64,000 bases of DNA from Eutreptiella sp. 'Long Island Sound 2002'. Lineage: Eukaryota > Euglenozoa > Euglenophyceae > Eutreptiales > Eutreptiaceae. The notes under the pieces were generated by a model that did no database searches, was not told where the DNA came from, and was given only the letters and a program-made list of their open reading frames with translations. The number at the start of each line of letters is the position of its first letter. Position 1 is the stretch's first letter. Location of the stretch: positions 143,911,596 through 143,975,595 of the forward strand of contig OZ038381.1 of the NCBI GenBank assembly GCA_964036045.1, read 5' to 3'. Position numbers and translations under genes: made by a program. Below, piece after piece: positions 17,601-48,006 of this stretch.

Positions 17601-18715
17601 TGCAGTGTAGGGGGTAGTCCCCGTCCTTGTACTCCAGGACTAGGCCAGCGTCGATACATTCTTGTATCTGTCGCTCGATCTCGTCGGCCTGCTCTTTAGG
17701 AGCTGGATAGGGTCTCCTCCGCATCTTGTGACCCACGAACTCGGGTTTCAGCTTGAGGTCCATCTGTACCAGCTTGTCACATGAGGCTGGAGGGGGTAGT
17801 TCTCCGAACACCTCCAGATAGGTCCTTATAAGCTTCTGTACCCGCGGGTCCAATACCTTGATCTTGTCCTCCATGTCCTCGTCAGAGTTTAGGTTGCTTG
17901 CCCCCTGAGTAATAGACGTCGAGAGGTGGTCCTCCGGCGACTCTTCGCCCGTGGTAGTGTCCTTCAGCCCTTGGTAGGCATATAGAAGGTCTTGTTCAAC
18001 CATGTCCTGTGGACGATGGCAACATAGGCACGCTCGAGGGGGTTCACATACACATTCCTCCGAGAGGTCGTCCTCCTCTGGGGTCCTCACATGGGCGCCC
18101 CACACGCTCTTCATAAGCTTGAGATCTACCTCCCTTTGCCAGGTGGTGATCTTCTGTTCGAGGTCCTCTTTCAATTGGGATAGGTCTCCCATACGTCCTT
18201 GCTTCAGTGGCCATGAGCTGCGGGTAGGCTTCGCGTGGCATAGCTTTTTCGCCACCAACTTCCTCTTGGAATCCACATACTCCCTTAGCCTGGATCGAGG
18301 GTCCAGCTCCTCGTCCACGGGGTCTTCCACCCTCATGGAGAGTAGGGGTTTCAGTGGGGCGACGTACTCGGCGTTCTCCACCTCCTCCACACAGGTCTGC
18401 ACGAAGAAGGCGTCGTGCTCAGTTTCGTCATCTGAGTGGATAGAGCTAGGTAGCTCAGATAGTCCACACTCAGAGACTCCATCAGGAACAGGTACATGAC
18501 AGGGCGAGTTGGGGGCGTTGGTGTCAGTCAGGACGTACTCATCTCCTCCGGGTGTAGTCTCAACAGCATCTTGAGGTCGTAGGCGATCCTTCAAGTCACC
18601 CAAGGCGAGTCCATCGCTTTCTCGTTGTATAGCCTGGACCAGAGTCGGGTCCAGATCCTCCCAGGGAATGGAGGTAAGACCTCCGTTCACCACGCTGAGC
18701 ATACTCCCCCATCCG
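14644..18715 (-). pseudogene. Inner element pol, downstream part: RT, RNase H, integrase, chromodomain
   Basis: Reading from 18715 down: an acidic linker within the duplicated target (18715-17677). RT follows with RRRPYPAP, LVVDYGELN, KMDKRSGFWQVD, FGVANAPALFQELMNKIL and catalytic HIDD (17209-17220). RNase H has VTDAS, YEQELLA, CDQEPV and HHIQGVKNECADYIS (about 16770-16310). Integrase has an HHCC finger (about 16030-15885), YVDY, the SDEDVRVRSD stretch and NPLCER (near 15530). The chromodomain has GWRFLTLWEGF and ATWEP. Stops: TAG at 16180 between RNase H and integrase, and TGA at 14797 inside the chromodomain, after which the frame continues to a natural TGA at 14644-14646. The polyprotein is otherwise intact, indicating fairly recent activity. 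Confidence 0.9.
17677..18715. repeat. Left copy of the 1,039-bp target duplication flanking the giant LINE
   Basis: This matches 42710-43748 in direct orientation, with the same length, no indels and about five differences seen by eye. It begins GATCTCGTCGG and ends CCCCATCCG. The segment is inner-element pol (linker plus start of RT), and both copies stay open in the pol frame. LINE sequence starts at 18716. Confidence 0.92.
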
Positions 18716-19375
18716 ACGGGGACGGAGACAAGAGCAAGGAAAAACAAGGTATGAACCCCACACCGCCCCGCCCGCAAACACACACACGCTCTCGCTATAG
18801 GGAATGACCACGTACCACGGGGAAACAATGGTATGGAGGTATGACGAACAAGTATGTTAAAAATGCGAGGGAAGGCGCCAAGGGGACGAAAACACAAACA
18901 CACACAAAGCCGCAAGATGCACGAAGACGGAGACGAGACAAAGGAACGTCATGGTATGCAACCCCACCCCCGCCCCACCCACAAACAAACACACGCTTTC
19001 TCTATAGGGGACGGCAACAGGAAGCGGCACAAGGTACAACAAGTATGTTGAAAAAAAAAAAACACGAAACCGCCTTCCACGCCCTCTCTATAGGGGAAAC
19101 GCAATGCGGAGAGGTATGTTATCGAAGACGCAGCGAGGAAAAAAAAAAACACGAGGGAGGAGACACAAAACACAACACGCAAAAAAAAAAAAACAAAAAG
19201 GACCTGCGCACGCTCTTTCTCAACAGGGGAAGAAAACATGATGGGACGAATAGAAAGGTACGTGCTACGCATCACACATGCCACGCATCTCTGCTACGCA
19301 TCTACAGGACCTCTTCTTCTGCCTTTTGAAACATGCCGACGACCGACGACGAGAACCAGCCAAGGTATGACACAC
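18716..19375 (+). other. LINE 5' leader with a series of mini-intron-like modules
   Basis: At least six GTATG/GTACG donor-like sites alternate with five acceptor-like sites. Donors lie near 18750, 18955, 19050, 19113, 19256 and 19365. Acceptors read CTCGCTATAG near 18800, TTCTCTATAG near 19008, CTCTCTATAG near 19094, CTTTCTCAACAG near 19227 and CATCTACAG near 19308. Pieces between acceptor and next donor are short (about 20-60 nt), usually starting GGGAA or GGGAC. Apparent introns are about 50-140 nt and often A- or C-rich. No long frame is obvious. The alternative is a degenerate tandem repeat that only resembles splice sites. Confidence 0.45.
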
Positions 19376-19559
19376 CCCACCCCACCAACCACACACCGCG
19401 AGCACACACACGCGCACGCACGACAGCCACACCGAGCGCGACCCCCCCCCCCCACGCCACCCACACCAACACGAAGGGCCACACAGCGCACACACACACA
19501 CCAAGGCCAAGGGGAAGGGCACCCGGAAGACACGCCCACCGCACCACCACACCACACCA

Positions 19560-21315
19560 CCACCGGCAGCGAAACCCAGCCAGGAGTGGCGGGGAGTAGC
19601 ACACAGGAACCTCCGCCAGGAGTGGCGAGGGACCAACCACACCAGCCACAAACCCACCACACACGCCACCGCCGCACGCCACACGCCACACACCACACAC
19701 CGCACACCACACACCACCGCCGACAGCGAAACCCAGCCAGGAGTGGCGGGGAACGCCCACCACCGCCGGCAGCGAAACCCAGCCAGGAGTGGCGGGGAGT
19801 AGCACACAGGAACCTCCGCCGGGAGTGGCGAGGAACCAACCACACCACACACCAGCCGCAACCCCACCAGCACACCACCACCGCACACCACACACCACAC
19901 ACCACACACCACACACCACACACCACACACCACACACCACCGCTGCCAGCGGACCCCAGCCAGGAGAGGCGGGGGACCACACACCACCACCGGCACCGAA
20001 ACCCAGCCAGGAGTGGCGGGGAGTAGCACGCAGGAACCTCCGCCAGGAGTGGCGAGGGACCGACCACGCCACACACCGCCGCCAACGGACCCCAGCCAGG
20101 AGTGGCGAGGACCGCCCACCACCACCAGCAGCGAAACCCAGCCAGGAGTGGCGGGGAGTAGCACACAGGAACCTCCGCCAGGAGTGGCGAGGGACCAACC
20201 ACCAACACACCACCGCCACACACCACACACCACCGCCGCCAGCGGACCCCAGCCAGGAGTGGCGGGGACCGCCCACCACCACCGGCAGCGAAACCCAGCC
20301 AGGAGTGGCGGGGAGTAGCACACAGGAACCTCCGCCAGGAGTGGCGAGGGACCAACCACACCACACACCACCCACAACCCCGCCAACACACCACCGCCGC
20401 ACACCACACACCACACACCACGCACCACCACCGCCAGCAGGCCCCAGCCAGGAGTGGCGGGAAACCGCACCCCACCACCGGCAGCGAAACCCAGCCAGGA
20501 GTGGCGGGGAGTAGCACACAGGAAACTCCGCCAGGAGTGGCGAGGGACCAACCACACCACACACCAACCACAACCCCACCACACACCGCCGCCGCCAGCG
20601 AACCCCAGCCAGGAGTGGCGGGGAACCGCGCCCAGGGCCCTCAGCCAGGAGTGGCGAGGACCGCCCACCGCCACCGGCATCGAAACCCAGCCAGGAGTGG
20701 CGGGGAGTAGAACACAGGAACCTCCGCCAGGAGTGGCGAGGGACCAACCACAGCCACAACCCCACCAACACACCACCGCCGCACACCACACACCACACAC
20801 CACACACCACACGCCACGCACCACCGCCGCCAGCAGGCCCCAGCCAGGAGTGGCGGGGAACCGCACACCACCACAGGCAGCGAAACCCAGCCAGGAGTGG
20901 CGGGGAGTAGCACACAGGAACCTCCGCCAGGAGTGGCGAGGGACCAAACACACCACACACCAGCCACAACCCCACCACACACCACCGCCGCCCGGAGACC
21001 TCAGCCAGGAGTGGCGAGGACCGCCCACCACCACCGGCAGCGAAACCCAACCAGGAGTGGCGGGGAGTAGCACACGGGAACCTCTGCCAGGAGTGGCGAG
21101 GGACCAACCGCACCACACACCAGCCACAACCCCACCAACACACCGCCACCGCTCACCATACACCACACACCACACACCACACACCACACGCCACTGCCGG
21201 CGGCGGAACCCCAGCCAGGAGTGGCGGGGAGCCGCACAACACCACAGGCAACGAAACCCAGCCAGGAGTGGCGGGGAGTAGCACACAGGAACCTCCGCCA
21301 GGAGTGGCGAGGGGC
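19560..21315 (+). repeat. Array of about 30 GCCAGGAGTGGCG hairpin motifs in the LINE leader
   Basis: The core GCCAGGAGTGGCG occurs about 30 times, counted by eye, with few variants. CGCCA and TGGCG can pair across a GGAG loop, and copies within CCTCCGCCAGGAGTGGCGAGG pair further. Copies come in a higher-order pattern: AACCCAGCCAGGAGTGGCGG, then CACAGGAACCTC plus a second motif, then a CACCACACACC-rich spacer of varying length. Long reading frames here on both strands are translations of the repeat and are not called as genes. Isolated copies recur at 24551, 25247 and 42160. Confidence 0.85.
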
Positions 21316-22030
21316 CAACCATACCACACACCCGCCACAACCCCACCAACACACCACCACCGCACACCACACACCACAAACCACGCACCACACACCAACA
21401 CAGACACCACGCGCGCACGCACCGCGCCACAAACACACACACCGGCGGCGAACCACGACCAGAGGAGGGAGCGACACGCCCGCAAGCAACACAGCCAGGA
21501 ACAGCGAAAACCCCCCCCCCCCACCACCACCACCCCACCCCGGAGAGACGGGACACCAACCACCGCAAACCGCACAGCGAAAAGGGGGGCGGGACGAAAA
21601 GGGCCCACGGGGGGCGCAGGCGAGGGACCCAACCTCAGGGGTTTGGGGGCCCCCCCGGTGACCGTATCGGCCCCACCTGAGCACACGCAATAAGGTGGGA
21701 TACGCCCGGGACCGTTGGTCAGCGGCCCGCGGTGGCACCGGCCTGGGGGGGTGACCAATGGGCCTGACCAAGAGCACTCCCCATGGCACGTACTGCGGTT
21801 CGGGCCCAGCGAGGGGCTGCGGGTAGGGCACACCGTCCATCGGGGCAGACAAGAGACGCGCCTGTCCCGCAAGGACTCCCCAGCGACCCACAGTGTACCC
21901 GACCCCGGTGTGGGGAACGGCTGGAGTACCTGGCTACGGAACAGGTCCATGGACGGCATCCGTACAACAGAGTTACACCCTGACGGGGAGTGCAAGCAAC
22001 GGCCCCCCCACGGGGAAACACCAGGGGAAG
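21316..22030 (+). other. Unique segment in the LINE leader
   Basis: After the array comes a C-run near 21513, then a more balanced GC-rich stretch (21590-22000) without obvious repeats or a convincing gene. It differs in composition from both neighbours and could be leader sequence with RNA structure or promoter function. No known RNA family was recognised. Confidence 0.4.
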
Positions 22031-26403: not shown

Positions 26404-29400
26404 CAGCGCGTGCGCTCCAGCCCACTGCTGGGAAGACGACTTCGACATCCTCCCGGCCATCCGACACCTACTGGCAGCCACGGCCCCGCGCCCACAAGCC
26501 CACCAGCAATGCACGGAACCGCAAGAGCCCGACCACCCCATGCCACCACGTTCCACATCCCCCGCGTCCACCGCAGACCGGAACGCGGAACACCAGCGAG
26601 AGGAGCCCGACCCCGGCCGCGCCGCCACGCCCCCACCGCCCCCCCCCCAAAGGACATCTACACCACGCTGGCCAGCACCCTAGCCCCCATGAACGCCGAG
26701 CAGTACTACCAGTCCGTCCAACGGGACCTCCCTGAGGACCACGCGACCCTCCAGGGATGGAAGCAGGAGAAAAGGTACGACAACGAGTGGGGCACAGAGG
26801 AAGACCTTCTCTGGGACGACACCTGGAAAGGCACCGCGGACGCCTTCCTGGAGGCAGCAGCCGAAACCTACCCCCGCCCGCCCGGGGACACCAGATACGG
26901 CATCCACGCCCTCCTAGCGTTCCACAGCTGGAAACACCGCCACACCGTCACCCTCCACCCCCTCGACCACAATCCACACCGATGGACACCTGAAGACGAC
27001 GCCACAGCCACCATCACCGTACAGCAAAGCCCTGAGAACCCGAAGGAATACCACATCACCTGGGACGATCCGGCACCCCACCCCCCCGCCTCCCCCACCC
27101 TCCCAGATGTCTTCGCCACCATCAGTGCAGAGCTCCAGGAAGCGAAAGCCCCCCAGCAACTGGACGAAGAGATGCCCCAGGTACCATCACCATCAACCAC
27201 ACAAGACCAACCCCGCACAGAGCCCCTCACCCACCCCATCACCACAATGGAGCTCCCCCCACAACACCGCACCACCCCAGACCGAAACGGGTTTCGAGAC
27301 CTGCCGCGGGAATGGGCGGTCCACAACGGCACACTCCGGTTGGACGAAATCACACCGGGCCTCCAAGCCATCCGCCTCCACTCGATCACAGAGCCCACCA
27401 CCACCTGGGCACTACCGACGGACCGCCACCACCTCCTCCTCACCGTCCAAGGCGATGCCACGATCACACCCACGGAAGGAGACCCCGTAACAGCAGCCCC
27501 CGCCCACGCCGTCCACATACCCCCGCAAGCATCGTCGGCACCTATGACGGTGCATCCAGGCCCCACCCCTTGGCAGGCCATCGTCATCACCTACCCCGCC
27601 CCCAATGACCACACACACACCTGGCAGCAACGATGGGAGGACATCCGAGGGGACCTCCTCCAAGAACACCTAGGGCTCACACGCACCCACCACACCCTAC
27701 AACCGATGCGAGGAGTAGGCCAAGCGCCACACGGCATACACGCCCCGGGAGTATGGGCGTACGCCACACCCATAAACCCACAAGCAGCGGAGGACATCAA
27801 GACCGCCCTATCCATCCAGCAAGCCCAGACCCAAACCCCGCACCGCAACACCCAACGAGGCTACACAATTTGGTGGGCATACCAAGACCATGACACCCTC
27901 ACCCCCCAACTGGAGGCCCCCCCTCTAGACACCAACACCACCGCCCTCCTCCAAGCCGCAGCAGCGGCAGCCACACAGGTAGGGGCCCCGGAAACCTGGA
28001 GCCCGCGATACCTGGTCGAAACCAAAGTGGCGCCCCACGCGAAGGGCCAAGACAAACCCCCAGCACCGAAGCCGCTTCACCCCCCGCTCAAGCTAGACCC
28101 GACGGAACACACCCCCCAGGATGAATGGGCGACCCACTACATCATCCCCCACACCACCACTCGCAAGAACGACGCCGCCAAGATCACCGTCACCCGCCAC
28201 CTCCCCCACACCACACAGGTGTATGAGCTGACGGCCCCCAACGTCCTCGTCACCCGTCGCCGACACGACGAGCGATACACCATACAGGCGGAAGGGGCCG
28301 CCGCGACCACCCTGTACACATGGGCAACACGGGGGGACCTCCCACACCCCACCCTCCACCACGCCCCCTCCTGGCCCACCCCCTTCCACACAGCGGACCG
28401 CCCCAACAAGAAGCCCAAACACACGGGTGTGCACACCCACGCCCAGGAGGCCCAGCACCGACACGAAGCGAGGCGCAAGGCCCGCACCCTCCATGACGAC
28501 CACACCATCCCCCGCATCGGCGCCCCCCCCGCCAGGGTATCAGATACCACCCACAACCGCACGATCACAGGCATCACCACCGACTGCCTGAACCCAGCGG
28601 CGTCGCGGGCAGACGCCGCGTGGATCAGCGAAGGGCGCTCCCACACACGGGCGGTGGCGCGCCTCCACAACATCCAACCCCACAAACTCCAACGCGCCGT
28701 TGGACCCTTCGCCGTACACATCACCCCGTACGGCATCGACCACCCCCGGTGTGAGCACCATGACCCGCCCTGCTCCACCCCATACACCTCGCCCCTGCGC
28801 CAACCGCTGCCGGCCCCCACCATCACGGGCAACATGTACCTGGGCACCGTACCGGGAGACCCGGGCATATACATCCTGCCCAACAGGTCGAGGGAACACG
28901 CCATCCCCCTCCACGGTGTAGAATCCCTCGCCCTGGGACCACCCCCACCAAAACACCAACACCAACACATCCCGGGGGACAAACGGACACAGGCCCCAGA
29001 CGGGGGAAAAAAGGCCCACCAACGTGCCCTGGCCCACATCACCCTCCACCCCGCAGCCCACCTACCAAAGGACTTCGGCACGGAGCGCCACATCGTCCTG
29101 GAGGGGCAAGCCCACCACATCATCACCACCGCCCTGTACACCCTCGCCGCCCACGAACGCCACTTGGACCCCACAACCATCCCAGCAATGCCCCCACCGC
29201 CCCAAGGCCCCAAAGATCCCGTCACCCCCTTCCACATCGATCAACCCCTAAGCCGCAAGGCCCCCCCACACCTCCACCCCTCCAGGATACCACTAGCCAT
29301 CGCATCGTGGGACACCCTCGACACCCCCCCCCGACAACCCGCCATCCACATCCTCAAGGCGGACACCCAATGGTGGGTCCTCCACTGGGCACACAGAGTC

Positions 29401-30447
29401 CTCATGGCGGCCCAGGCCTATACCCCGGAAATGGACCCAGAAGACCCCCCACGGGGCCAGCAGCGACTCCTCCAAGCCACCACCCTCACAGGCCGCGAAG
29501 GCGCCCCCTGGGAAGCCCTTCACACAGCACTCTACTGGGCTCAAGGCTCCCCCAACGGCCCGGACACACCGGAACCCACAGAGGCCAGGGTCATGCTGGC
29601 CAAGACCATGAGGAACTACCACCTACACCACCCCTTCGACGACAGCCCCGCCGCACTGCCATGGCCAACAGATCCCCCGGAGACCGTGCGCAAGCTCGCC
29701 GACATCATACGCAGCCACGCGAAAGCGAAAATGCAAACACCGGCAGAACCCCCACTGAGGGATCCAGACCAGCAAGCAACGCACCCCTTCTTCAAACCCC
29801 ATGCCCCGCTACCTCCAGTCCCACCCAAGCGAACGAGACGACAAAGGGGCGCACCCGCCCCCAGCCAAGCCGGAAAAGCAGCGACCTCCCGATCCCCCGC
29901 GAACCCAGACCAAGCATCCTCGTCATCCTCCCTCCCACCAATACCACCGCCCCACCCGGACCAAGCATCCTCGTCATCCCCCCTCCCACCAGTACCACCG
30001 CCCCACCCGGACCAGGCATCCTCATCATCCTCCCTCCCGCCACCAGCACAGCCCCCGCCCGAAGCGTACCCAGGGTTCGAAAAAGGTGCGAAGGTCCAAC
30101 AGCCCTTCCGCAACGACCACACAGGCGACTGGATCTGGTGTGAGGGCCAGATCCAGTACCGCCTCAAGGGACCGGGGGACAACGGGGGGCCACAAGTCCG
30201 GGTCATCTGGCACCGCCAAAAGGAGCTAGACCAAGGCAGCAGCGCCCCGGACAAACCACTCGGCGACACCCTGGAACTCACCAGCGCCCACCCCATCCGG
30301 CTCTGCACCGAAGAGAACAAGGCCCACACAGGCACCAAATACACTGGGGAGCTCCCCCCGGAGTGGAGCCAAGGCCTCCCCCCGCCGCGCCCACCCAAAC
30401 GCCCACGAACCGGCAAAAAGTCCCCAAGCCGCAGTCCCCCTCCCTGA
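26404..30447 (+). CDS. LINE first reading frame, N-terminal part (function unknown)
   Basis: The frame opens after a TGA at 26401. The first in-frame ATG is 26509, and a second at 26689 (MNAEQYYQSV) starts the more protein-like sequence, so I favour 26689. About 1,250 residues follow to a TGA at 30445-30447. The same frame then continues into the endonuclease, so this is the N-terminal part of one giant polyprotein. A segment near 27370-27600 alternates hydrophobic strands and glycines (LLLTVQGDATIT, AHAVHIPP) in a cupin-like manner, which is tentative. The rest is Pro/His/Thr-rich and unrecognised. Three 17-residue repeats (DQASSSS...PPHP) precede a basic region at the end. The TGA probably inactivates this copy; readthrough is an alternative. 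Confidence 0.6.
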   Translation, partial: QRVRSSPLLGRRLRHPPGHPTPTGSHGPAPTSPPAMHGTARARPPHATTFHIPRVHRRPERGTPARGARPRPRRHAPTAPPPKDIYTTLASTLAPMNAEQYYQSVQRDLPEDHATLQGWKQEKRYDNEWGTEEDLLWDDTWKGTADAFLEAAAETYPRPPGDTRYGIHALLAFHSWKHRHTVTLHPLDHNPHRWTPEDDATATITVQQSPENPKEYHITWDDPAPHPPASPTLPDVFATISAELQEAKAPQQLDEEMPQVPSPSTTQDQPRTEPLTHPITTMELPPQHRTTPDRNGFRDLPREWAVHNGTLRLDEITPGLQAIRLHSITEPTTTWALPTDRHHLLLTVQGDATITPTEGDPVTAAPAHAVHIPPQASSAPMTVHPGPTPWQAIVITYPAPNDHTHTWQQRWEDIRGDLLQEHLGLTRTHHTLQPMRGVGQAPHGIHAPGVWAYATPINPQAAEDIKTALSIQQAQTQTPHRNTQRGYTIWWAYQDHDTLTPQLEAPPLDTNTTALLQAAAAAATQVGAPETWSPRYLVETKVAPHAKGQDKPPAPKPLHPPLKLDPTEHTPQDEWATHYIIPHTTTRKNDAAKITVTRHLPHTTQVYELTAPNVLVTRRRHDERYTIQAEGAAATTLYTWATRGDLPHPTLHHAPSWPTPFHTADRPNKKPKHTGVHTHAQEAQHRHEARRKARTLHDDHTIPRIGAPPARVSDTTHNRTITGITTDCLNPAASRADAAWISEGRSHTRAVARLHNIQPHKLQRAVGPFAVHITPYGIDHPRCEHHDPPCSTPYTSPLRQPLPAPTITGNMYLGTVPGDPGIYILPNRSREHAIPLHGVESLALGPPPPKHQHQHIPGDKRTQAPDGGKKAHQRALAHITLHPAAHLPKDFGTERHIVLEGQAHHIITTALYTLAAHERHLDPTTIPAMPPPPQGPKDPVTPFHIDQPLSRKAPPHLHPSRIPLAIASWDTLDTPPRQPAIHILKADTQWWVLHWAHRVLMAAQAYTPEMDPEDPPRGQQRLLQATTLTGREGAPWEALHTALYWAQGSPNGPDTPEPTEARVMLAKTMRNYHLHHPFDDSPAALPWPTDPPETVRKLADIIRSHAKAKMQTPAEPPLRDPDQQATHPFFKPHAPLPPVPPKRTRRQRGAPAPSQAGKAATSRSPANPDQASSSSSLPPIPPPHPDQASSSSPLPPVPPPHPDQASSSSSLPPPAQPPPEAYPGFEKGAKVQQPFRNDHTGDWIWCEGQIQYRLKGPGDNGGPQVRVIWHRQKELDQGSSAPDKPLGDTLELTSAHPIRLCTEENKAHTGTKYTGELPPEWSQGLPPPRPPKRPRTGKKSPSRSPPP
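29908..30060 (+). repeat. Three in-frame 51-bp tandem repeats
   Basis: Each unit encodes 17 residues beginning DQASSSS and ending in a proline-rich LPP-PPP stretch; the third unit has a diverged end. It forms a flexible linker shortly before the endonuclease domain. Confidence 0.8.
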
Positions 30448-32775: not shown

Positions 32776-35700
32776 GGGTCTGCCACACCTCCCACCCTAG
32801 GGCCACAAGGGCCCCCCATGCACGTCGTGACGACCACCACCCACCCGGGGGTAGTCCAGGCCGCCAACCCTGAGGACGCCACCCTCCCTCCCAAGTTGCA
32901 GTCGCACCTCGCCCATCTCCCCAGATATGCGTCCCCGACCACCAAGGCCCTCTCCCTGTCCCACCAGAGCCTGGCGTACTACCTCACCGGGGTCTTGAAC
33001 GCCTCCATAGGCTTCCAAGCACTCCACCTGACACACCCCACCACCGCCCTCCAGCCGGCCACACGCGCCGTGACCAAGGCATTGGCAGCACACGGGGGCT
33101 GGCCCACCTCCATACCCACCCGCGCCATCCGAGCGGCATGGCCCCACTATGGAGACGCCATAGGGGACGAGGTGAAAGCAGCCTATACCAGACACACCGC
33201 CCTCCTCCTTCACCGCATGACCCACAACCACTCACCGGAGCTCCGCGAGGTCACCGCCATCAGCCTCCAAGCCGCACAACGGGCCCGCAACACATGCCCG
33301 CGCTGGGTACTCCACCAGACGGGCATGCCCACCAACATGAACACGCGCCTATGGAACCACCTGCAACTTCTCCTCCCATCCCCACACCACGCCATACTCA
33401 CCAACCACACGTGCCCAGAGAAAGGGCCACTAGCGGTCCTCTGCGGGGACCTCCACCATCACCCCAAGGGCACCATCCACACCATAGACCTTGTCGGGGC
33501 CTCCATCACCGTAGTATACGTCACCCTCTCCCAAATGCGAGTCCTGCACCACAGCGGGGCACACCACACCCCCTTTCTACAGCTTCCCGAATGGCCAAAA
33601 TACCGCCTCTTCCACCAGTACCTCACGCAGACGGCACGAACAGCGGGACACACTCTACCGGGCAGCAAAGACATGCGCACAGCCTACCGAGAATTCACAA
33701 AGCAACACCCGCGACCCATCCCAGCGACACCGCCCTACGCACCCACCGGATCGAAACACGAACCCGTCCCCCCGGTAACGGGCCCAGTCCCACCACTAAC
33801 CCTGCTACTGGCCCCGAACGAAGCCAAACCCACGCAGACCACCGTCATCCACCACGGGGCAAAATGGCGCATACCGAAGCACCACATGACCGCCCGAGAC
33901 CTGCCAAAGGTCCCCCAAGATTCCCAGAGCATGCCACGCACATGTTGGGCCTGTGACCCCGAGGCACCAGCCACACCATGGCCCGTACTACACCTCATAG
34001 CACGCCACCACACCCAGCCCACAACCCACCTACCACCACAGGCCTACGCATGGATAGCCCCATGGTTCCACCGCACCGACACTAACCCCACGGTAGCATG
34101 GAACCCCGACCACGCGCCCAAATGGCTCTTCACCACTACACCCACATGCCCCCGCCCCGACCCGGCAGGGGTCGCCATCCGTTACAGCATGTACGAGCCA
34201 GGCAGAACGGGCAAGCACGAGCACCCCTACTATGCACTCCACCACTCCTGCCACACACCGGAGCACCAAACACAAACCCTCACATGCCACGACCTAAACC
34301 CCGACACAGCCTACATCCTCCACTACATCTACTCCTACCTCACACAAGGACAGCCGGAGCAGGGACTCATAGCCCTGTCCCCCCAAGCGAAGCACATCAT
34401 CTCCAAACGAATAGGGGTGTACGCCACCCCCATCCTGCAGCCCACAACACCAGTAGCCCACCTCGCCACGGGCCTTGCCATATACGCCTACCTGCCCATG
34501 AACCCATGCCGCCTCCCACAACCATCACCGGCGGACCGGCTCTTCTTCACCGACGCCTCAGGCGAATCCTCCCTCACGCCCATCACCGGGGGGGCCACCC
34601 TGCAGCTAACCCACACCGGGGGACACTACCACATGGACCACCACACGGGCCACACCACCTATGGGGCCTCTTCCCACGGGGAGCTAGGGGCCATGGCCGA
34701 CGCCATCACCGAGATCGCGGCCCACCTACCCGCCCACTCCCCGCACATCGTCCGGGTCTGGTTCGTGGTAGACGCCACTGTCGACACACACCTGCTCCTC
34801 CGCATAGCAAGGCAACCACTTCACAAAGCAACCGCGACGAGCCTCGGCACCCAGGCACTGCTACTCTGGAAAGCCCTACGCAGCCTTCCCCCCTACGTCC
34901 AGCTCCACATCGTGAAACAAGAGTCCCACAGGCACCAATACGGAAATGGTAAGGTCGACAACCAGGCAGTACACCAGCGCACAACACACCTACCAGCCCT
35001 CCAGATCCCAGACCTCGGCCGCAACCACACACACCTCCAACACGTGCCCCCTGTACCCGAGCCCCATCAGACCCCGGACTGGGTACCAGAGGACGCCCCC
35101 TATTCCTCCCACGACAGAGCGTACCACTACCCCAACCCCATCCAACATCTCGCCCGCGTGCTCGGCGACGCAGACAGCCGGGCGCACATCCAGGAGCTCC
35201 AGGACAAACTGCAAGTCCCCCTCTACCACTCAGCGCTCCGCCCAGCAAACGTCCCAGCCCACCTCCAGAAACGACGCATCCAGCTCCTCAGGCAGCAGCT
35301 GCCACTCCTCACCAGGGTCGCTAGATGGCTCGCCCGCAAGCACATCCACGTCCCTGACGAACACACCCGCTGCCCATGCGACCACACCACCCCGGAGGAC
35401 TGGGAACACTTCAAGAAATGCCCCCCCCATACAGACAGGGACACCCTAGTGGGCTGGTCCCGGGCGGAAACCCTGCGACAACACGAAGGATGGCCAACCC
35501 ACAGCCACGCACACCAGGCCACCGAACACCTCTTCCGGGACCCCCTGATCAAAGAAGCCACCATGAGAGGGGCAGTGACACAGGCCCTGCACCGACACCT
35601 CACCAAAGACACGGAAAGCCCCATGGAGGCAGCAGCACACCTCCAGCTAGAAGCGGTCCGCAGAGCAGCGGCCCAAATGGTACACCGCAAACACCTCCTG

Positions 35701-35796
35701 CTAACACACGCGGAACAACTCACCGACCCCGCCGCCAGGGAACACATGCAGCGTCTCATCCATTACCATGCCGTGCATGACCCAGACGTCCACTAA
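32776..35796 (+). CDS. LINE first frame, RT thumb, RNase H and zinc knuckle part
   Basis: It continues in frame beyond the TAG. The first 600 codons are the RT thumb and a helical linker. A block around 33945-34170 has cysteines and histidines (CWACDPEAP...) of unknown role. RNase H is supported by LFFTDASGES (near 34535), SHGELGAMADAI (near 34672), WFVVDATVDTHLLL (near 34760) and HRHQYGNGKVDNQAV (near 34930), giving D-E-D and a GN.xxD end. The C-terminal knuckle is CPCDHTTPEDWEHFKKCP (35371-35424), typical of LINEs. The frame ends at TAA 35794-35796. Its last 29 bp overlap the second reading frame, in the +1 phase. Confidence 0.85.
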   Translation, partial: GSATPPTLGPQGPPMHVVTTTTHPGVVQAANPEDATLPPKLQSHLAHLPRYASPTTKALSLSHQSLAYYLTGVLNASIGFQALHLTHPTTALQPATRAVTKALAAHGGWPTSIPTRAIRAAWPHYGDAIGDEVKAAYTRHTALLLHRMTHNHSPELREVTAISLQAAQRARNTCPRWVLHQTGMPTNMNTRLWNHLQLLLPSPHHAILTNHTCPEKGPLAVLCGDLHHHPKGTIHTIDLVGASITVVYVTLSQMRVLHHSGAHHTPFLQLPEWPKYRLFHQYLTQTARTAGHTLPGSKDMRTAYREFTKQHPRPIPATPPYAPTGSKHEPVPPVTGPVPPLTLLLAPNEAKPTQTTVIHHGAKWRIPKHHMTARDLPKVPQDSQSMPRTCWACDPEAPATPWPVLHLIARHHTQPTTHLPPQAYAWIAPWFHRTDTNPTVAWNPDHAPKWLFTTTPTCPRPDPAGVAIRYSMYEPGRTGKHEHPYYALHHSCHTPEHQTQTLTCHDLNPDTAYILHYIYSYLTQGQPEQGLIALSPQAKHIISKRIGVYATPILQPTTPVAHLATGLAIYAYLPMNPCRLPQPSPADRLFFTDASGESSLTPITGGATLQLTHTGGHYHMDHHTGHTTYGASSHGELGAMADAITEIAAHLPAHSPHIVRVWFVVDATVDTHLLLRIARQPLHKATATSLGTQALLLWKALRSLPPYVQLHIVKQESHRHQYGNGKVDNQAVHQRTTHLPALQIPDLGRNHTHLQHVPPVPEPHQTPDWVPEDAPYSSHDRAYHYPNPIQHLARVLGDADSRAHIQELQDKLQVPLYHSALRPANVPAHLQKRRIQLLRQQLPLLTRVARWLARKHIHVPDEHTRCPCDHTTPEDWEHFKKCPPHTDRDTLVGWSRAETLRQHEGWPTHSHAHQATEHLFRDPLIKEATMRGAVTQALHRHLTKDTESPMEAAAHLQLEAVRRAAAQMVHRKHLLLTHAEQLTDPAAREHMQRLIHYHAVHDPDVH

Positions 35797-38700
35797 CCCG
35801 CTCCACGCCCCGCACGCGCCCCCCGTCTCCATCCACAGGTCTCCAAGGCACCACCACAGCGCCCCGAGACCCGTCTCGCACCCAAGAAGCCACCCGGCAC
35901 CGCCCAGTCCGGCGGAGCCCAGCCAGGGCCAACCGTACATCGACGTAGACACGCAAGACCCCGGCAGCCCATCCAGCCCACCCCCCCCGGACCCGGAGCA
36001 CCCCCCCCTCACACCGGCCACCATCCGCGACCCTGACCTCCTCCGAGCGACCCTCCAAGACAGGGCCCCGGCCACCCCCCTAGGCTGGTACCGCCTACAA
36101 GAGGACTGGACCAAGCTCACCGTCAAAGCCCTCCGGGACCTGACCACCCCAGGCAGCGGCCTCCACGAGACCATAGTGGACCTCGTGCTCTGGCGAGCCC
36201 GCAAACACACCCGGGGCCAGCCCATCCGGATCCCCCCCATCGAGTGGGGCCAGGCCCTGACGCACGACACCGGCAGCAACGTCACGCGTCGAGGGACCGT
36301 ACGCCTACGGCGGGCCCAAGCAGAGACGGACCACCCAGCGGACCCGAACCACCCGGAGCAGTGGGAACAGGCCACCGCGCCCAACCGCGACACCGCCCTC
36401 CGCGCCGCCGGCCTCCGCACCCCGGACGACGACCTCCCCCCCCCACCTACAGACAGTGGCCAGCCCCCACCGGAGGTCTGGGTTACAGTCCTCGAGCGCG
36501 GCCACTACTACGTGATAGCCGCTACGGCTACGTCCCCCGGCCAGCAATGGATCATCCAGGGGACAGACACCATGTACGCCCCGGAAACCGCCCCACCGGG
36601 GGCAGTGGGGGACCCCACCACCCAGCACAGGATCCTCAGGGGTGTCCTCCAGCCAGGGGACAAGCCCCCAGCCCGCGCCCTGGCCCAAATCACCTCAGGG
36701 AAGGCGGGCTACCACCTGGGATTGGCCATGCTCTGCCTAACCCACTGGATCCAGCGCCACTGGCCACCCACGGGGACCGTGCCCTGGGTTTGGGCCATCC
36801 CCACCGCCCACACACAAGTCGAGGCAGGCCCGGACACACGACCAAACCCCCCCCCAGGACCGCAACAGTCCCTCACCTGCGGGTACCACGCCATCCACAG
36901 GGTCCTCAACCGCGCGGGTCTTAGCCCAAAGCTAGCATGCCCCCTTCCCACCACTGACCAAGAGGTCCACCAGATACGAAAGCTCGTCTGCCAAATCCTT
37001 GCCGCGGCAGCAGAAGACGGCAAGCTTCTCCTCCAAACCGCCCGGCCTACAACTGCCCACGCAAGCGCGCGGCAAACGAACACATACACCGGCACCCCAC
37101 ACCCCCCCGCACAATCCCCGCCCATGCCCCCCCCCTCTCGCTGCCCAACCGGAGACCCACACACGCCCACCAACGCGCGCAGCCCCGGGCCCCGCGACAC
37201 GGGCCTCCCCCACCCACCCGAACACCAGCACACGCCCGCCACACACCCGCCCGCCGGCCACCCTTCACCGCCCCCCACACTCGACAACCCACACACACCC
37301 GCCAAGGGGAGCCCCGCGCCCCGCGGCACGCCCACCCCACCCAGTGGCCCGCCCACGCCCCCCAAACACACCCCAGAGGACCCAGGCCCATCCCCCCCGG
37401 CCCCTGAATGCAGCCCACGCGAACTGTTCCCCCCCGCGGACACCAACCCACACGACCTCGCACATTGCAGGACCCGGGCCCAGCCGAGCCCAGAGCGAGA
37501 AGGCCGCAGCCCCGCGCCTCCCTCCCCCGCCGCTGCCGACCAGATCGGCCCGCCGGGCCGCCAGGTCACGACCGGGCCCCCCCAGCCGCCCGCCCCCAAC
37601 CTACAACCCGGGGACATGCCCTCCATCCTCCCCGCCGTGGCCGCAGCAGAAGCCGCCGCCCGCAAGCCCGCCCGCATCACAGCCCAACCCGCGTCCACCA
37701 CCTCCTCCTCGTCCTCAGCCTCCTCCACCTCCTCCACCTCATCCTCCGACCCCCCCCTCCCCGCCAAACTCATCCTCAAGGCCACGGCGAAAGCCAAAGC
37801 CGCGGCCGCACGCACCGGCCCCCCAACCCCCACACAGGCGACTCAGGCACCCCGGCAACCCACCGGGACGACCCCCGACCCGACATCGACGCCCTCACAC
37901 CTCCGGACAGAGGTACTCCTCAACCTGGAACCGGACCCCAACCCCAAACCCGACCCCAAACCAAAACCGGACCCAAACCCCAAACCCAACCCCAAACCCA
38001 AGCCGGCGCCCACGCGAGCACACACAACACCGCATACGCAACGACACAAAACAACCCGACACTACCCCCGCCCGGGCCCTCGCCCAAGCCAGGACCCCCC
38101 GCCCACCGCAACCCGCCCCCCCCTCCCGCCGGCACCCACCACCACCGCGGAGACGGCCACCCAGCACGACCCCGTCCAGACCCTCGTCCACATCCCCGTC
38201 ACCAAGCGCCCCGTCATCCATCCCCCACAAACCACCACCACCGCCGGCCAAACCGACCCAGGGACGTGGGACCCCTCAACCATCGTCACCGTCAAGCCCG
38301 GCCCCAAACCCTTCCCCCATGCCCACCACATAGTGCAGCCCCGGGGACTGCCCACGATGGCCAACCCCCCACCCCCAGTAGGGGGACCGGAAAACCCACA
38401 AGGACTCCATGGGCCATACCCACAACACCAACCCCACCACTACACACACCACCACCACCAGCGGCCCCACCACCACCACTACCAACACCACCCCCACCAC
38501 TACCACTGCCCACCGCCCTACCCCACCGGGCCACAACCCCCCGTACACGAACAGCACCAGCGGACGGGATGGCAGCCACCGACCGCCCCACCCCCATACC
38601 CACCCCCCCCGTACCAGCCACCACCCCCGTACCAGCCGTACCCCCGCGGCCACCATCCCATGGCCGAAGGGGCCCCATGGACAACGGGGGACCTCCCCCC

Positions 38701-39833
38701 CCAGGCGGCACCGCGCGGGGCCCCGTACCCCCCGGGCCACCATCTGATGGCCGAAGGGGCCCCAAGGACGACGGGGGACCTCCCCCCCCAAGCGGCACCG
38801 CGCGAGGCCCCCCAGAGGCCGCCGACGCTTCCGGACTGGCCCGACTCGAGCGACGGGGGCCGGTCCCGCAAACGGCGGCGCCTCCGCTCCCCCCCCGCAC
38901 GACACACTCGCCCACGGCGCCCACACTCCCACCGCGCCTCAACCACCCACTCGCGCCGCTCCCACTCCCCCAGATACCACCACGACCCCCAGGGACCCCG
39001 CTCCTGTCGCTCCCGCTCCCCCGGGCGCCACCACGAGCGCCACCGCCGCCCCATGTCCCCCTCCCCCTTCCCCCACCGGCCACCCAGCCCCCGCCACCAC
39101 CACTCCCGCTCCCCCCGCCGCCCCACGTCCACCTCCCCCTCCCCCCACACACCCCGCCGGGCTCCCCGTTCCCCCCGCCACCCGTACCCATCCACCACCC
39201 CCAGCCCCCGCCACCACCACTCCCGCTCCCCCGGACGCCACCGAGCGCGCCACCGCCGCCCCATGTCCACCTCCCCCTCCCGCTCCCCCCTCCGCCCGTA
39301 CCCGTCCTCCACCCCCAGCCCCCGCCGCCGCCGCTCCCGCTCCCCCAGGCACCGCCACCCCCGCCACCATCGCAGGTCCACGTCTTCCCCCCGCCGCTCC
39401 AGGACCCCGGACACAGACCCCTCCCCCCCCCGCCTGGTGGTCTCCCCCCGCTCTGCAGGAGCTCCGCCGCTGGGTGAAATGGGCCGGGGGAGCGGGAAGG
39501 CACGAAGGGGTGCACATGGTGCATACCTTCGAGGAGGTGCGCACCCGCACCCCCGCAAACCTCAACGAGGCCGCCCCGGAGGCCATCATGCCGCAAGCGG
39601 CATGGGAGGCCCTCCTCCGCGATGCGGTCCAGGGCCTCCGCCCCCCCTACACCCCCCAAGCCCTCCGCCGGTGGCTCCAGGCCACCCACCCCCAAGCCTG
39701 GGCCACCGGCGCCCCCTCCCCACCCCGCCCCTCCCGCCACAACCACACCAGGAAGGGGCAGGACAAGGACAAGGGAAGGGCAAGGGGCACCAAGGAGCAC
39801 ACAGACAAGAGGGCATGGAAGGGCCCCAAGTGA
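35768..39833 (+). CDS. LINE second reading frame: putative Ulp1-like cysteine protease with RS-rich tail
   Basis: It starts at ATG 35768, overlapping the end of the first frame. Residues 240-390 suggest a C48/Ulp1-type protease: GHYYVIAATA with H246, an Asp at 267 in GTDTMY, then PQQSLTCGYHAIH with Q366 and C371. The spacing between Asp and Gln is longer than in cellular Ulp1, so this assignment is moderate. A low-complexity region follows with NPKPDPKPKP-type repeats (37920-38010) and two copies of a GHHxMAEGAPxTTGDLPPQAAPR unit (38640-38800). An Arg/Ser/Pro/His-rich RS domain spans 38855-39420. At a C-run (39422-39431) the frame likely shifts by one: the +1 phase gives a balanced sequence (LQELRRWVKW, AWEALLRDAVQGL) ending at TGA 39831. 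Known Utopia-type LINEs carry Ulp proteases, which supports the idea. Confidence 0.65.
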
Positions 39834-40347
39834 GGGCAGCCACACGCAGGGACAGGGCGCCGGCAGCGACACCACATGGGGGCAGGAAACCACCCAAGAA
39901 CCAGGACGGGGCGGGAACGGGGACCAAGACACGGAGGACAAGAGCACCACGGCGGGCACCACGACCCACACCCAGGAAGGGCACACCACAACGGGGAGAC
40001 CAGCGCCGCCCCAGCCCCACCAAACACCCCAACACACACCACCGAAGCAAACATCGGACGCCATACGGGACACACCAGCGCACGCCCACCGGCCACCGGA
40101 AACCACACGGAGAACGGAGGGCACACCTACACGGGGAGTACGGGCCACACCCACAGAGGAAGCCGCAGGGAACGCCGCCGCACGGCGCACCACCACGCCC
40201 TCACCACCAGGCGACGACCCCAACCAGGCACCGGAAGAGGACGAAACCACGGCCGCGGCACCCACGGCTACGGACCCCCAGAGGACACGGGACCAAGGCA
40301 CAGGCCCCCAGGGAGGGCAACCCCACGGACCGTCACGCGACCACACC
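39834..40347 (+). other. GC-rich LINE 3' sequence
   Basis: Between the likely end of the second frame and the captured gene fragment. It is GC-rich and repetitive in composition (ACCACG, GGGCAC words). Open phases exist but look like composition artefacts. No feature recognised. Confidence 0.5.
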
Positions 40348-41032
40348 ATGGGCTATAAGGGCCGGGCTGCGTTACCGTCGCGGTTTGACGCAGAGTACTG
40401 CTATGCACTTGGATTGACGGCCGGGGGCTTGATCTCAGCTGGCCTCAGGTCCGTGAGGGCGTCCGTCACCAACCTGTTGCGTCCAGTGGAGGAATGGCAC
40501 TGCGGCGGCACGCCGATCCCGTCCATGATGAATTTCGAGCGCCGCAAGGGGAAGTGAAAGGCTGTGATCGATCGCGAAGGCCTTGGTGCTGCTGGACGGT
40601 GCCCCCTTCAAGGCCATCTCCGAGCGCCGTGACGACTGGAAGAGCCAAGATTACTACCGGTGCCCCGGACCCCTGCAGTTCAGCACCGGAGATATGGACA
40701 CCCCCCTGACCCTGAAGCATGAGCTCATCCCCCGGCGGCACCGACCCGGACCCTCATGTCCCTGCCAGCGCAGCCAAGCTGCAGTGCAAGCCTTTCGCCA
40801 CTCAAACAGCGTTCGGAAGCCACCTCCACCGTCCGACTCCTGATTTCTGTTTGTCTGCCTTGGAGAAGGAACGTCTTCCTACACCCCGAGTACGCCTGCC
40901 TGTCAGCGGGGCCCGGTGAAGATTGAGTCCATGGGTGAGAGTCAGCGTGCACGCCCCAAGGACACCGTGATCATTCAGCAGAACTTCCCGAAGACCTACC
41001 CGACCCACACAGGCCAGGCTGACCTCCACTGA
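40348..41032 (+). pseudogene. Captured C-terminal fragment of PPi-dependent phosphofructokinase (PFP)
   Basis: PFP phosphorylates fructose 6-phosphate reversibly using pyrophosphate in cytosolic glycolysis. Three pieces in different phases read as its C-terminal region. 40348-40556 has GYKGRAALPSRFDAEYCYAL, then NLLRPVEEW, CGGTPIPSMM and ERRKGK. 40575-40735 has ALVLLDGAPFK, RRDDWKSQDYY and PGPLQF. 40850-41032 has LSALEKERL, GPVKIESMGES and IIQQNFPKTYP, ending at TGA 41030. These follow the order of long protist-type PFP proteins. At least three frameshifts break it. No intron is evident, so it resembles a retro-copied mRNA end. Base composition is less C-rich and more even than the surrounding LINE, supporting capture from a host gene. 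Confidence 0.75.
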
Positions 41033-42691
41033 CCCACCGCAGCACCACGCGAGACCACGGCACACCGCACCACAGCGCGCCACAGAGCAACGCACCACAG
41101 CACGACGCGACGCGACGCGGCACAGAGCGGCACAGCACGACACAACTGACCCTAACCTGAGGGACTAACCGAAGCCAGCCACCGCACACCCAGGAAGGCG
41201 CCGCGCCACCACGCCACACACCAGCACCGCAAGCCACACACGGGGCCACAACGCGCCAGGCGACAACGGTGACGGACCACCCAGAAGAATACAGCCGGCA
41301 CCGCAGAGGGGTAAGGACACGAACAGCCCCAGCCCCCTAACCCAAAACCACAAGCAGCCGCCTGGCGCAGCCGCCCAGCCGGCAGAGCCAGGACCTAACC
41401 CAGCAAGAAAGGGCGCCGAGCCCACCGTGTACAAAGCCCACCCGACCCATGGGGCCGGAACGTGACCACACAGAACGCAACTGAAGACAGCAGCCCGGAA
41501 GACAACACTGAATGCAGGCCAGTGCGTGCGCCAGCCCAGGGCAGGCAGAGGGAGGAACAGGCAAGCCCCCCCCCCCCAAAAAAAAAAAAAGGGAGGGGGG
41601 GAGGGGAAAAGGCACGAAAACAGCCCACAGCCGCCAAACCGCCCGCCAACACTACCACAGGCGGCCAAGCCCCCCCCCAGAAGGCAACGAAAAAAAAAAA
41701 AAAGGACCCCCACAGAGGCACAGGGGGACCACCCACCCAAAACCGGCAACACCAAGCCAGTAACAGCGGACCACGGGGAAAAGGGACACGGAAAATAGAA
41801 AAAAAAAAAACAGAGAGCCACCAGCCCAGCCCGAAAGAAAGGGGATGGAGGGACAGGGACCAGAAAGCCAAAAAAAAAAAAAAGAAAAGAAAAAACCAAA
41901 GCGAAAAAAAAAAAAAACACACCCCGACAACCCAGCCAAGAAGGGCTGGGCGCAGGCGAGACCCAGGCCCAGCACACACGCCCACACCGCGCGCCGGAAC
42001 CGGAAAGGGCGGGGGGCAAGCGGGGCGCCCACGAAACCACACACGTCCCAAAAGCAGGCCAAAACTGAAGCCCAACCACGAACACCACAAACAGCCGACA
42101 CTAGAGGGACAACACCACAAACCGTGCCCAAACACACCCACCCAAGACCCCAGCCAGGACTGGCGGGGTAAACAAAACCCGCACCCAACCGCAAACCGGA
42201 CCCAAACACAAACGCCACACGACAGTAGGAAACCCAGTGCCCACAGCCCGGGCACTGAGGCAGCCCGTGCCATGCAGGTGACCCGGCCGAACGAGATCCG
42301 GAGACCGGGGGTAAGGCTGCATCCTAAGGCCTGCGCTGCTTTGGGACTCGAGGCGGAGCGTGCGACACCCAAGCCCCTCGGAACCCTAGTACCAAGAACG
42401 TGCATGCACGCCTTGGGAACGGGATACGCCAGGAAGTCCGGTGAACCCCTAGGGTTCCGCCCAAAGGAGGGGACGTGCGCAAGCACGGGGGCACACCCTC
42501 CCGGCGAGACAAGCATGTCACGCTGGCGGCGATCAGCCCTCCCGGCGTAGCCCGGGGCCGCTTTGTTGGGGGCCAACAGTCAGGTCTAGCGGGAAGTAAG
42601 CCGCCTCCCCTCTTCACGCGCGAAGCCTCTTCCTGTTCGTCACAGGGGCGACGCCAGGGGGAACCATGGGGCGCCTCTCCACGACCGAGTG
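41033..42691 (+). other. LINE 3' untranslated region
   Basis: No gene. It contains a GCACGAC/CACAGC-rich stretch (41040-41150), several A-runs of 10-14 in 41575-41930 set in an A/C/G background, one copy of the leader hairpin motif (near 42155-42170), and a more complex GC-rich end (42250-42690). The terminal 90 bp share ACAGGGGCGACGCCAGGGGGAA-like words with the LINE 3' fragment near 52365, so the two belong to related LINE families. Confidence 0.6.
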
Positions 42692-42709
42692 CACCTACCT
42701 ACCTACCTT
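42692..42709 (+). repeat. Tandem CCTA tail at the LINE 3' end
   Basis: CACCTACCTACCTACCTT lies directly before the duplicated target. Short tandem tails of this kind replace poly(A) in several LINE clades and mark the 3' junction. A TTAC-type tail at 52467-52485 marks a related element. Confidence 0.85.
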
Positions 42710-44608
42710 GATCTCGTCGGCCTGCTCTTTAGGAGCTGGATAGGGTCTCCTCCGCATCTTGTGACCCACGAACTCGGGTTTCAGCTTGAGGTCCATCTGT
42801 ACCAGCTTGTCACATGAGGCTGGAGGGGGTAGTTCTCCGAACACCTCCAGATAGGTCCTTATAAGCTTCTGTACCCGCGGGTCCAATACCTTGATCTTGT
42901 CCTCCATGTCCTCGTCAGAGGTTAGGTTGCTTGCCCCCTGAGTAATAGACGTCGAGAGGTGGTCCTCCACCGACTCTTCGCCCGTGGTAGTGTCCTTCAG
43001 CCCTTGGTAGGCATATAGAAGGTCTTGTTCAACCATGTCCTGTGGACGATGGCAACATAGGCACGCTCGAGGGGGTTCACATACACATTCCTCCGAGAGG
43101 TCGTCCTCCTCTGGGGTCCTCACATGGGCGCCCCACACGCTCTTCATAAGCTTGAGATCTACCTCCCTTTGCCAGGTGGTGATCTTCTGTTCGAGGTCCT
43201 CTTTCAATTGGGATAGGTCTCCCATACGTCCTTGCTTCAGTGGCCATGAGCTGCGGGTAGGCTTCGCGTGGCATAGCTTTTTCGCCACCAACTTCCTCTT
43301 GGAATCCACATACTCCCTTAGCCTGGATCGAGGGTCCAGCTCCTCGTCCACGGGGTCTTCCACCCTCATGGAGAGTAGGGGTTTCAGTGGGGCGACGTAC
43401 TCGGCGTTCTCCACTTCCTCCACACAGGTCTGTACGAAGAAGGCGTCGTGCTCAGTTTCGTCATCTGAGTGGATAGAGCTAGGTAGCTCAGATAGTCCAC
43501 ACTCAGAGACTCCATCAGGAACAGGTACATGACAGGGCGAGTTGGGGGCGTTGGTGTCAGTCAGGACGTACTCATCTCCTCCGGGTGTAGTCTCAACAGC
43601 ATCTTGAGGTCGTAGGCGATCCTTCAAGTCACCCAAGGCGAGTCCATCGCTTTCTCGTTGTATAGCCTGGACCAGAGTCGGGTCCAGATCCTCCCAGGGA
43701 ATGGAGGTAAGACCTCCGTTCACCACGCTGAGCATACTCCCCCATCCGGGCTTCCCAATAGGCGTCTTGCGTCCCAGAGGCACGTAGATGGCCTCATCAG
43801 GCAAACGAACAGAGCTGATAGTCAGCCTGTCCAGGAGGTTTCGCCAGTATTTGCTGCCCCCATGGGCTCCCCAATCGGGGGAACACAGGACCATACGGGA
43901 ACGTTCCAAGGCCACCTTGGTCAGCACCTTCCCCAGTTCACTGAACCTGGGGTTCCCGTAGGCCATCCCGAAAGAGGGCCAGTAAAATTTGTAGCTGCAG
44001 TTCTTCCCCTTGCTGCAGTAAAGGTCCAGTACATGCTGCTTGTCGCTGGCGAACAACTCCACACTCAGGTCTTCTCGGGAGTAACCCAATTCCTTCAGAC
44101 CTTGGTCTAGGACTTCCCCCAATAGTTGATAGTCCTCAGTTTTGGAGGCCGCCATCATGTTCGAGGGCTCCTCCTTCGATAGCCTCAGGTAACTCGAGGT
44201 ATGTTCCGACTGCTCCAGTGGCACAGGCTCTCTGCCACTGCCGTGGTCCACGTAGAGGAGGTAGGGCGCTTGCAGAGTCAGGGATTGTATCTGGGAGTGC
44301 TGTACGAAGAAGTCAGTCCCCAGTACAAAGTCGAAGGCCTCAGTGTCCATCACATAGAACCGATGGGCGATAGTCCGGGAGCCCATAGGTACCTCCACTT
44401 CACAGTCCCCGCAGCTGTGCACCACATGTCCATCCCCCATGCGTATAGCAGCGGTGGTCATGGTGTTCTTCAGGCTCCCACAACGTAAAATTTTCGTGGC
44501 CACTATAGATATTGTGGCGCCAGTATCCAATACCCCCAGGTATTCGCGTCCCCCTAGTCGGATACGTACCCAAAACACCAGGTCTTGGGTGCCACCGGAG
44601 CGTCCCCG
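42695..44608 (-). pseudogene. Inner element pol, upstream part: protease, methyltransferase-like domain, start of RT
   Basis: It continues in frame after the TGA at 44609. The aspartic protease shows VLDTGATISIV (near 44530) and LGTDFF (near 44315). Residues about 155-268 after the protease start (44115-43774) form the methyltransferase-like domain: VELFAS, YGNPRF and MVLCSPDWG, followed by VRLPDEAIYVP. Here NPPF has become NPRF, so catalysis is doubtful. A long acidic linker with a Cys pair (CEPPRACLCC) leads to the first RT motif RRRPYPAPKEQADEI, where the LINE insertion ends the frame. Everything from 43748 down is the duplicated target and recurs at 17677-18715. Confidence 0.88.
42710..43748. 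repeat. Right copy of the 1,039-bp target duplication
   Basis: Counterpart of 17677-18715. It is followed without a break by the rest of inner-element pol (GGCTTCCCAATAGG at 43749 onward), showing that the right side continues the original target. Differences seen include a GGTTAGG/TTTAGG change near 42920, a two-base change near 42970 and two in 43415-43435. Confidence 0.92.
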
Positions 44609-47119: not shown

Positions 47120-47205
47120 CTTCGTTCGCCCTTCTGCTTATATGTGACTGCTCGGCGCACTGGATGTACGGCGCGGGGTTGCTGCTGGTGCGCAGAGACA
47201 GTCTG

Positions 47206-47217
47206 CCTCTGCTACCA
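47206..47217 (-). other. Primer binding site of the inner element
   Basis: TGGTAGCAGAGG lies directly after the LTR end (CTTTC). It complements the 3' end expected for an initiator-methionine tRNA of the ...CTCTGCTACCA type. The host tRNA itself is not visible in this window. Confidence 0.75.
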
Positions 47218-48002: not shown

Positions 48003-48006
48003 ATAG

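Follow-up and report, generated by a model that had tools for sequence, protein, structure and literature searches.

The cutting and priming of the second strand is the least understood step in the insertion of long interspersed nuclear elements (LINEs), and the nick-to-nick distance is taken to set the length of the duplication left at the target site (PMC2666801, PMC4245944). Cultured cells have already shown kilobase duplications made by LINEs (PMC2666801, PMC5223499). Of 25 ZfL2-2 insertions in wild-type chicken DT40 cells, one carried a 1,228-bp duplication, and the rest carried short target alterations (PMC2666801). Human L1 gave duplications longer than 100 bp in 4 of 7 insertions in cells lacking XPA, 21 of 23 for XPC and 22 of 28 for XPD, against at most 10% in HeLa; those in nucleotide-excision-repair-deficient cells had a median of 1,495 bp and a range of hundreds of bp up to several kb, while repair-proficient cells gave ordinary short duplications (PMC5223499). 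In HeLa, 5′-truncated L1 copies sometimes had extremely long duplications, versus 10–17 bp for full-length copies (Gilbert et al., via PMC2912911). Here we analysed a 64,000-nt stretch of the genome of the euglenophyte Eutreptiella sp. 'Long Island Sound 2002' (assembly GCA_964036045.1, contig OZ038381.1, forward-strand positions 143,911,596 to 143,975,595; hereafter the window), in which a LINE lies inside a Ty3/gypsy retrotransposon between two copies of a 1,039-bp target segment, together with the family of this LINE, in which long duplications recur in roughly one insertion in five of the sampled copies.

A kilobase target-site duplication and its recurrence in the LINE family

By comparing the window with itself, we found that positions 17677–18715 and 42710–43748 (plus strand), each of 1,039 bp, align without a gap and with five mismatches (17888, 17936, 17937, 18382 and 18400), and that the sequences outside these copies diverge immediately (give or take 1 bp). 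Both copies lie within pol, coded on the minus strand, of a single Ty3/gypsy element, and they enclose a 5-nt filler (ACGGG, 18716–18720, plus strand) followed by the first LINE base and the LINE insert itself (18721–42709, plus strand). The original prediction of a LINE of ~24 kb flanked by equal and gap-free 1,039-bp copies is borne out, except that the clean, intact 5′ end placed at 18716 gives way to a filler and a LINE that starts at 18721 and is 5′-truncated. Among the 21 copies of the family with both flanks available, junction-to-junction repeats of at least 50 bp were found in five own pairs of upstream and downstream flanks (the TA microsatellite case L057 excluded) versus 0 of 420 mismatched pairs, which excludes chance. 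The 1,039-bp repeat in the window is a genuine target-site duplication, and the first- and second-strand events were therefore about 1 kb apart, a separation that had also been proposed at the outset. The long terminal repeats (LTRs) of the gypsy element are more diverged (23/785) than the duplication (5/1,039; Fisher p 2.6e-5), so the gypsy element is older than the LINE insertion; this order of events, like the junctions, the duplication, the truncation and the family, is read directly from the sequence.

To place the window copy among its relatives, the assembly (2.28 Gb, 2,205 contigs) was searched with a query from the 3′ end of the LINE (40 scored of 1,586 first-look candidates) and one from its 5′ end (best 40 of 686 first-look candidates, 30 of which became loci L035–L064), and each of the 30 loci fetched with the 5′ query was then searched for its 3′ side. 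All 39 other scored copies match the 5′ query only from its position 6, i.e. window position 18721. Fetched copies extend upstream of the window LINE start, to a common full-length start ~0.94 kb further up, although there are several distinct 5′ start points among copies; the window copy is thus 5′-truncated by ~0.94 kb, and full length is ~24.9 kb. Tails of (ACCT)4–6 end 29 of the 30 fetched 3′ ends (none was found in L024), and the flanks of 29 copies differ, unlike the fixed target of a site-specific (R2- or R9-like) LINE. No relatives were found in viral contigs.

Duplications were readable in 19 of the 30 near-full-length copies, of which 14 are short (13, 13, 10, 16, 8, 13, 11, 13, 9, 10, 16, 7, 17 and 8 bp) and five are long. 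Measuring the repeats flanking other copies, the check put forward with the original prediction, thus yielded four more sites with duplications of 238 to ~1726 bp: besides the window (1,039 bp), these are L047 on contig C10 (~1726 bp, 99.3% identity), L038 on C11 (1,059 bp, 98.8%), L064 on C23 (663 bp, 99.5%) and L063 on C3 (238 bp, 99.6%, with a 33-nt filler). None of the resolved copies falls between 17 and 238 bp. Compared with a null of 380 flank pairs, 13 of the 14 short calls exceed nearly all (fraction at most 0.0105), and several short-duplication copies also carry fillers, of up to 35 nt, ahead of the LINE. The window was picked because its duplication is long; when it is left out, 4 of 18 copies are long (95% confidence interval 6–48%). 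Two further copies are ambiguous (L057, at a TA repeat, and L060, whose target is itself LINE-like), and nine could not be read (L041, whose flank is common with L039, and L043, L045, L048, L052, L054, L058, L059 and L061). Long copies are 5′-truncated in 4 of 5 cases versus 5 of 14 short ones, a link that is suggestive and not significant (Fisher p 0.14); L064 is short of full length by a few bases only, which makes its class marginal, and L063 combines a long duplication with a full-length 5′ end.

Several other observations concern copies of this family. L039 and L041 lie ~19 kb apart on C25 with a common upstream flank, which suggests segmental duplication of a LINE insertion. At L009 (C21) and L034, one LINE copy lies in a satellite array whose period is ~705 bp. 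L002/L031 (C12) shows a 380-bp flank repeat (98.4%) around a composite element, which starts with a G-rich, truncated, different LINE-like sequence and ends with the tail of the window LINE family; template switching is one possibility for the composite, which was left out of the tally. At L058, the last 55 bp before the 5′ junction recur at 95–100% in 32 of 42 listed matches, and the whole flank has a 99% copy 243 kb away, inverted, perhaps reflecting a small-RNA or repeat fusion. P0053, P0058 and P0060 represent a second LINE subfamily, with ~47–53% identity in the endonuclease-reverse transcriptase region. Singleton substitutions in the LINE part of L035–L064 are strand-asymmetric (G>A at 33/332 sites, C>T at 16/497), a pattern that repeat alignment may disturb.

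Completion of the insertion and competing explanations

We consider it highly probable that the structure in the window was made when one LINE inserted once into one Ty3/gypsy element through target-primed reverse transcription (TPRT), the second strand being nicked or primed at a long distance from the first nick. What we infer within this scheme is TPRT itself, where the nicks lie and the filling-in. The LINE endonuclease would nick the minus strand at 17676/17677. To judge from the position of the tail, reverse transcription would begin at that nick from the (ACCT)n tail. The plus strand would then be nicked, or would offer its 3′ end as a primer, at 18715/18716, a site that lies 1,039 bp further downstream rather than at the usual distance of 7–17 bp from the first nick; the intervening 1,039 bp would be opened and each strand copied, so that both sides of the LINE receive a complete copy, with the cDNA ending ~0.94 kb before the 5′ end of the element. 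As five of the 19 readable copies are long (4 of 18 when the window is left out), second-strand events in this family are either close (7–17 bp) or far (238–1726 bp).

Some points weigh against this interpretation. The evidence consists of assembled sequence and not of reads, and what would place the second nick so far away is offered here as a proposal. The rate is rough, as it comes from 30 copies fetched among the best 40 of 686 candidates, and 11 of the 30 were ambiguous or unresolved. The short 7-bp call of L055 is weak against the null, and L059, which stands outside the tally, showed no long partner by flank search alone.

Completion coupled to replication or to a break is a possible course to which we assign a clearly lower probability. 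It would involve no distant endonuclease nick: a 3′ end at a fork or at a resected break would prime the second strand, and strand-displacing or break-induced synthesis would copy ~1 kb, yielding the same final structure. Ends exposed by replication or repair have been proposed as distant primers (PMC5223499), and 0.2–1.7 kb would seem long to open without a helicase; however, the junctions of the long cases are as clean as those of ordinary copies, and nothing in the sequence separates this course from a distant nick. An assembly artefact is very improbable, although support comes from the assembly, since substitutions separate the two window copies and long duplications of differing lengths, with exact LINE junctions, recur at five sites.

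Scarcely any probability attaches to recombination between two gypsy copies that each carried the LINE at a different position, an alternative raised with the original prediction. The gypsy element belongs to a very large family (6,186 member sequences in cluster P0083, and 1,862 first-look candidates), but its outer ATAG duplications match, and the window copies are mutual best matches (1852 bits, next 1784) among the 40 that were scored. Both also deviate from the family at codon 276 (His in 49/55; Asn and Thr in the window), while at another codon the upstream copy is altered and the downstream copy keeps the family Val (49/53); two of the five differences are synonymous. Such recombination also leaves aside the four long duplications at other sites. 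The counter-case first set out for this locus, namely ordinary short duplications elsewhere and two separate gypsy elements here, therefore holds in its first half, with 14 of the 18 other readable copies short, and fails in its second. Equally slight is the chance that the LINE landed precisely on the border of a tandem duplication that was already there, or that a duplication came later. One copy (L009) does lie in a satellite with a period of ~705 bp, but exact unit-boundary hits would be needed in five cases, the window flanks hold no further units, and the 1,059-bp match of L038 spans junction to junction despite short internal repeats at the start of its duplicated segment.

Returning to TPRT with a distant second-strand event, we looked at the repair genes of the host. 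XPA_C is matched on C8 and the small contig C1999, Rad4 twice (C8 and C15), and Rad10 only weakly and in part (29.7 bits, covering positions 9–51 of 115). Simple host loss of XPA or XPC would thus appear unsupported, given the XPA_C and Rad4 matches. That the family has two modes of completion, a near one (7–17 bp) and a far one (~0.2–1.7 kb) used in about one fifth of near-full-length insertions, in a host in which XPC- and XPA-type genes are present, stands in our judgement at about an even chance. The far mode may stem from the element itself, for instance from the very long copying time of a ~25 kb RNA, as slow copying would mean that a distant end primes the second strand. If this is true, giant LINEs would act as natural makers of kilobase duplications. 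Such duplications seed recombination and copy segments of adjacent elements. A natural family of high copy number, in which ordinary as well as kilobase duplications end at exact junctions, would allow the second-strand step to be examined through comparison of copies and without mutant cells.

Content of the LINE and of its gypsy target

The sense strand of the LINE is depleted in T (A.26, C.43, G.23, T.083), versus 24.9% T in the flanks, with three islands of more ordinary composition within 18716–42709 (at about 21650–22000, 40360–41040 and 42230–42709). Its 5′ part holds a tandem-repeat array (19553–21410, plus strand), and recurrent intron-like motifs (GGTATG ... TATAGGG) were seen by eye in 18716–19330. 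All further LINE features are also on the plus strand. A frame running over 26404–35796, with T at 3–4% of third codon positions, is interrupted by TGA (30445) and TAG (32773) into a long open frame upstream of, and in frame with, the endonuclease (26404–30447), a piece with endonuclease and reverse transcriptase (30448–32775) and its continuation (32776–35796). The endonuclease match (PF03372 on 30448–31239) scores 26.2 bits against a cut-off of 24.5, with a longer piece just under it at 24.2 bits, and the reverse transcriptase match (PF00078) has an E of 4.8e-15. In a sequence search of the PDB, LINE-1 ORF2p chains are the nearest solved protein (residues 364–704, E down to 2.6e-13), and R2 reached only E 0.14 or worse, a lead that the LINE may belong to the L1 clade. 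The endonuclease domain upstream of the reverse transcriptase, a variable simple-repeat 3′ tail, 5′ truncation among copies and target-site duplication are those of a LINE of the apurinic/apyrimidinic endonuclease (APE) type, and self-comparison of the window shows no terminal repeat besides the target duplication, i.e. no LTRs of the LINE. RNase H-like motifs (34540, 34678, 34768 and 34942) and a CCHC-like motif (35371) in the continuation were noted by eye only, and Pfam and PDB sequence searches gave no support for either, nor for an RNase H domain downstream of the reverse transcriptase.

A second long open frame (35705–40417, 1,570 aa) is of uncertain coding status and should be treated cautiously, because low T content makes stops rare; Pfam gave no match for 35705–40414 or for the frame upstream of the endonuclease. 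Rfam gave none in the whole window at gathering cut-offs and none on two LINE pieces at E up to 2. A captured fragment resembling pyrophosphate-dependent phosphofructokinase (40348–40557; PDB 1kzh, E 3.1e-13) makes this LINE unusual in itself. The fragment runs on in another frame to ~40720, within an island of ordinary T content, and it is carried by 17 matching proteins on large contigs at 86–99% identity, from which the capture seems older than the spread of the family. The LINE ends in an (ACCT)4 tail (42693–42708), its 3′ end reading GTGC(ACCT)4 plus one T.

The gypsy element is on the minus strand and shows paired LTRs, reverse transcriptase/RNase H, integrase, a primer-binding site (PBS), a polypurine tract (PPT) and a short outer duplication. 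Its 3′ LTR (11591–12376) is adjoined at 12376 by a PPT-like purine run, and its 5′ LTR (47218–48002) by a PBS-like sequence (47206–47217), which we take to fit initiator-Met tRNA; the 4-bp ATAG duplications lie at 11587–11590 and 48003–48006. Between them are the integrase (14797–16179), the reverse transcriptase/RNase H frame cut by the LINE (16180–18948, gypsy up to 18715), the protease/pol frame on the far side of the LINE (42695–44608, with a weak aspartyl protease match below cut-off) and an open frame at the gag position without Pfam match (45752–47137). Reconstructed with a single copy of the duplication, the element measures 11,379 bp, with a frame of 1,131 aa spanning the join.

Comparison with known LINEs

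To our knowledge, a length of ~24.9 kb is far beyond that of other LINEs. Neither a LINE near 25 kb nor a natural LINE family often making kilobase duplications appeared among the open-access literature matches listed, a scope that mostly leaves out subscription papers. A natural counterpart is R9 of bdelloid rotifers, which is said to make an exceptionally long duplication, reportedly of 126 bp, and to be specific to rDNA with a fixed duplication length; in the window LINE family, by contrast, both sites and lengths vary. ZfL2-2 resembles the window LINE family in having a kilobase duplication beside short ones, but it is a single event among 25 in a reporter assay, versus 4 of 18 natural copies here. 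Unlike L1 in HeLa, the window LINE family includes a full-length long case (L063), and 5 of its 14 short cases are truncated. The long duplications of L1 in repair-deficient cells are of the same structure class as those described here; they arose in cell culture and in repair mutants, whereas the window LINE family made its own in a natural genome with XPA_C, Rad4 and weak partial Rad10 matches.

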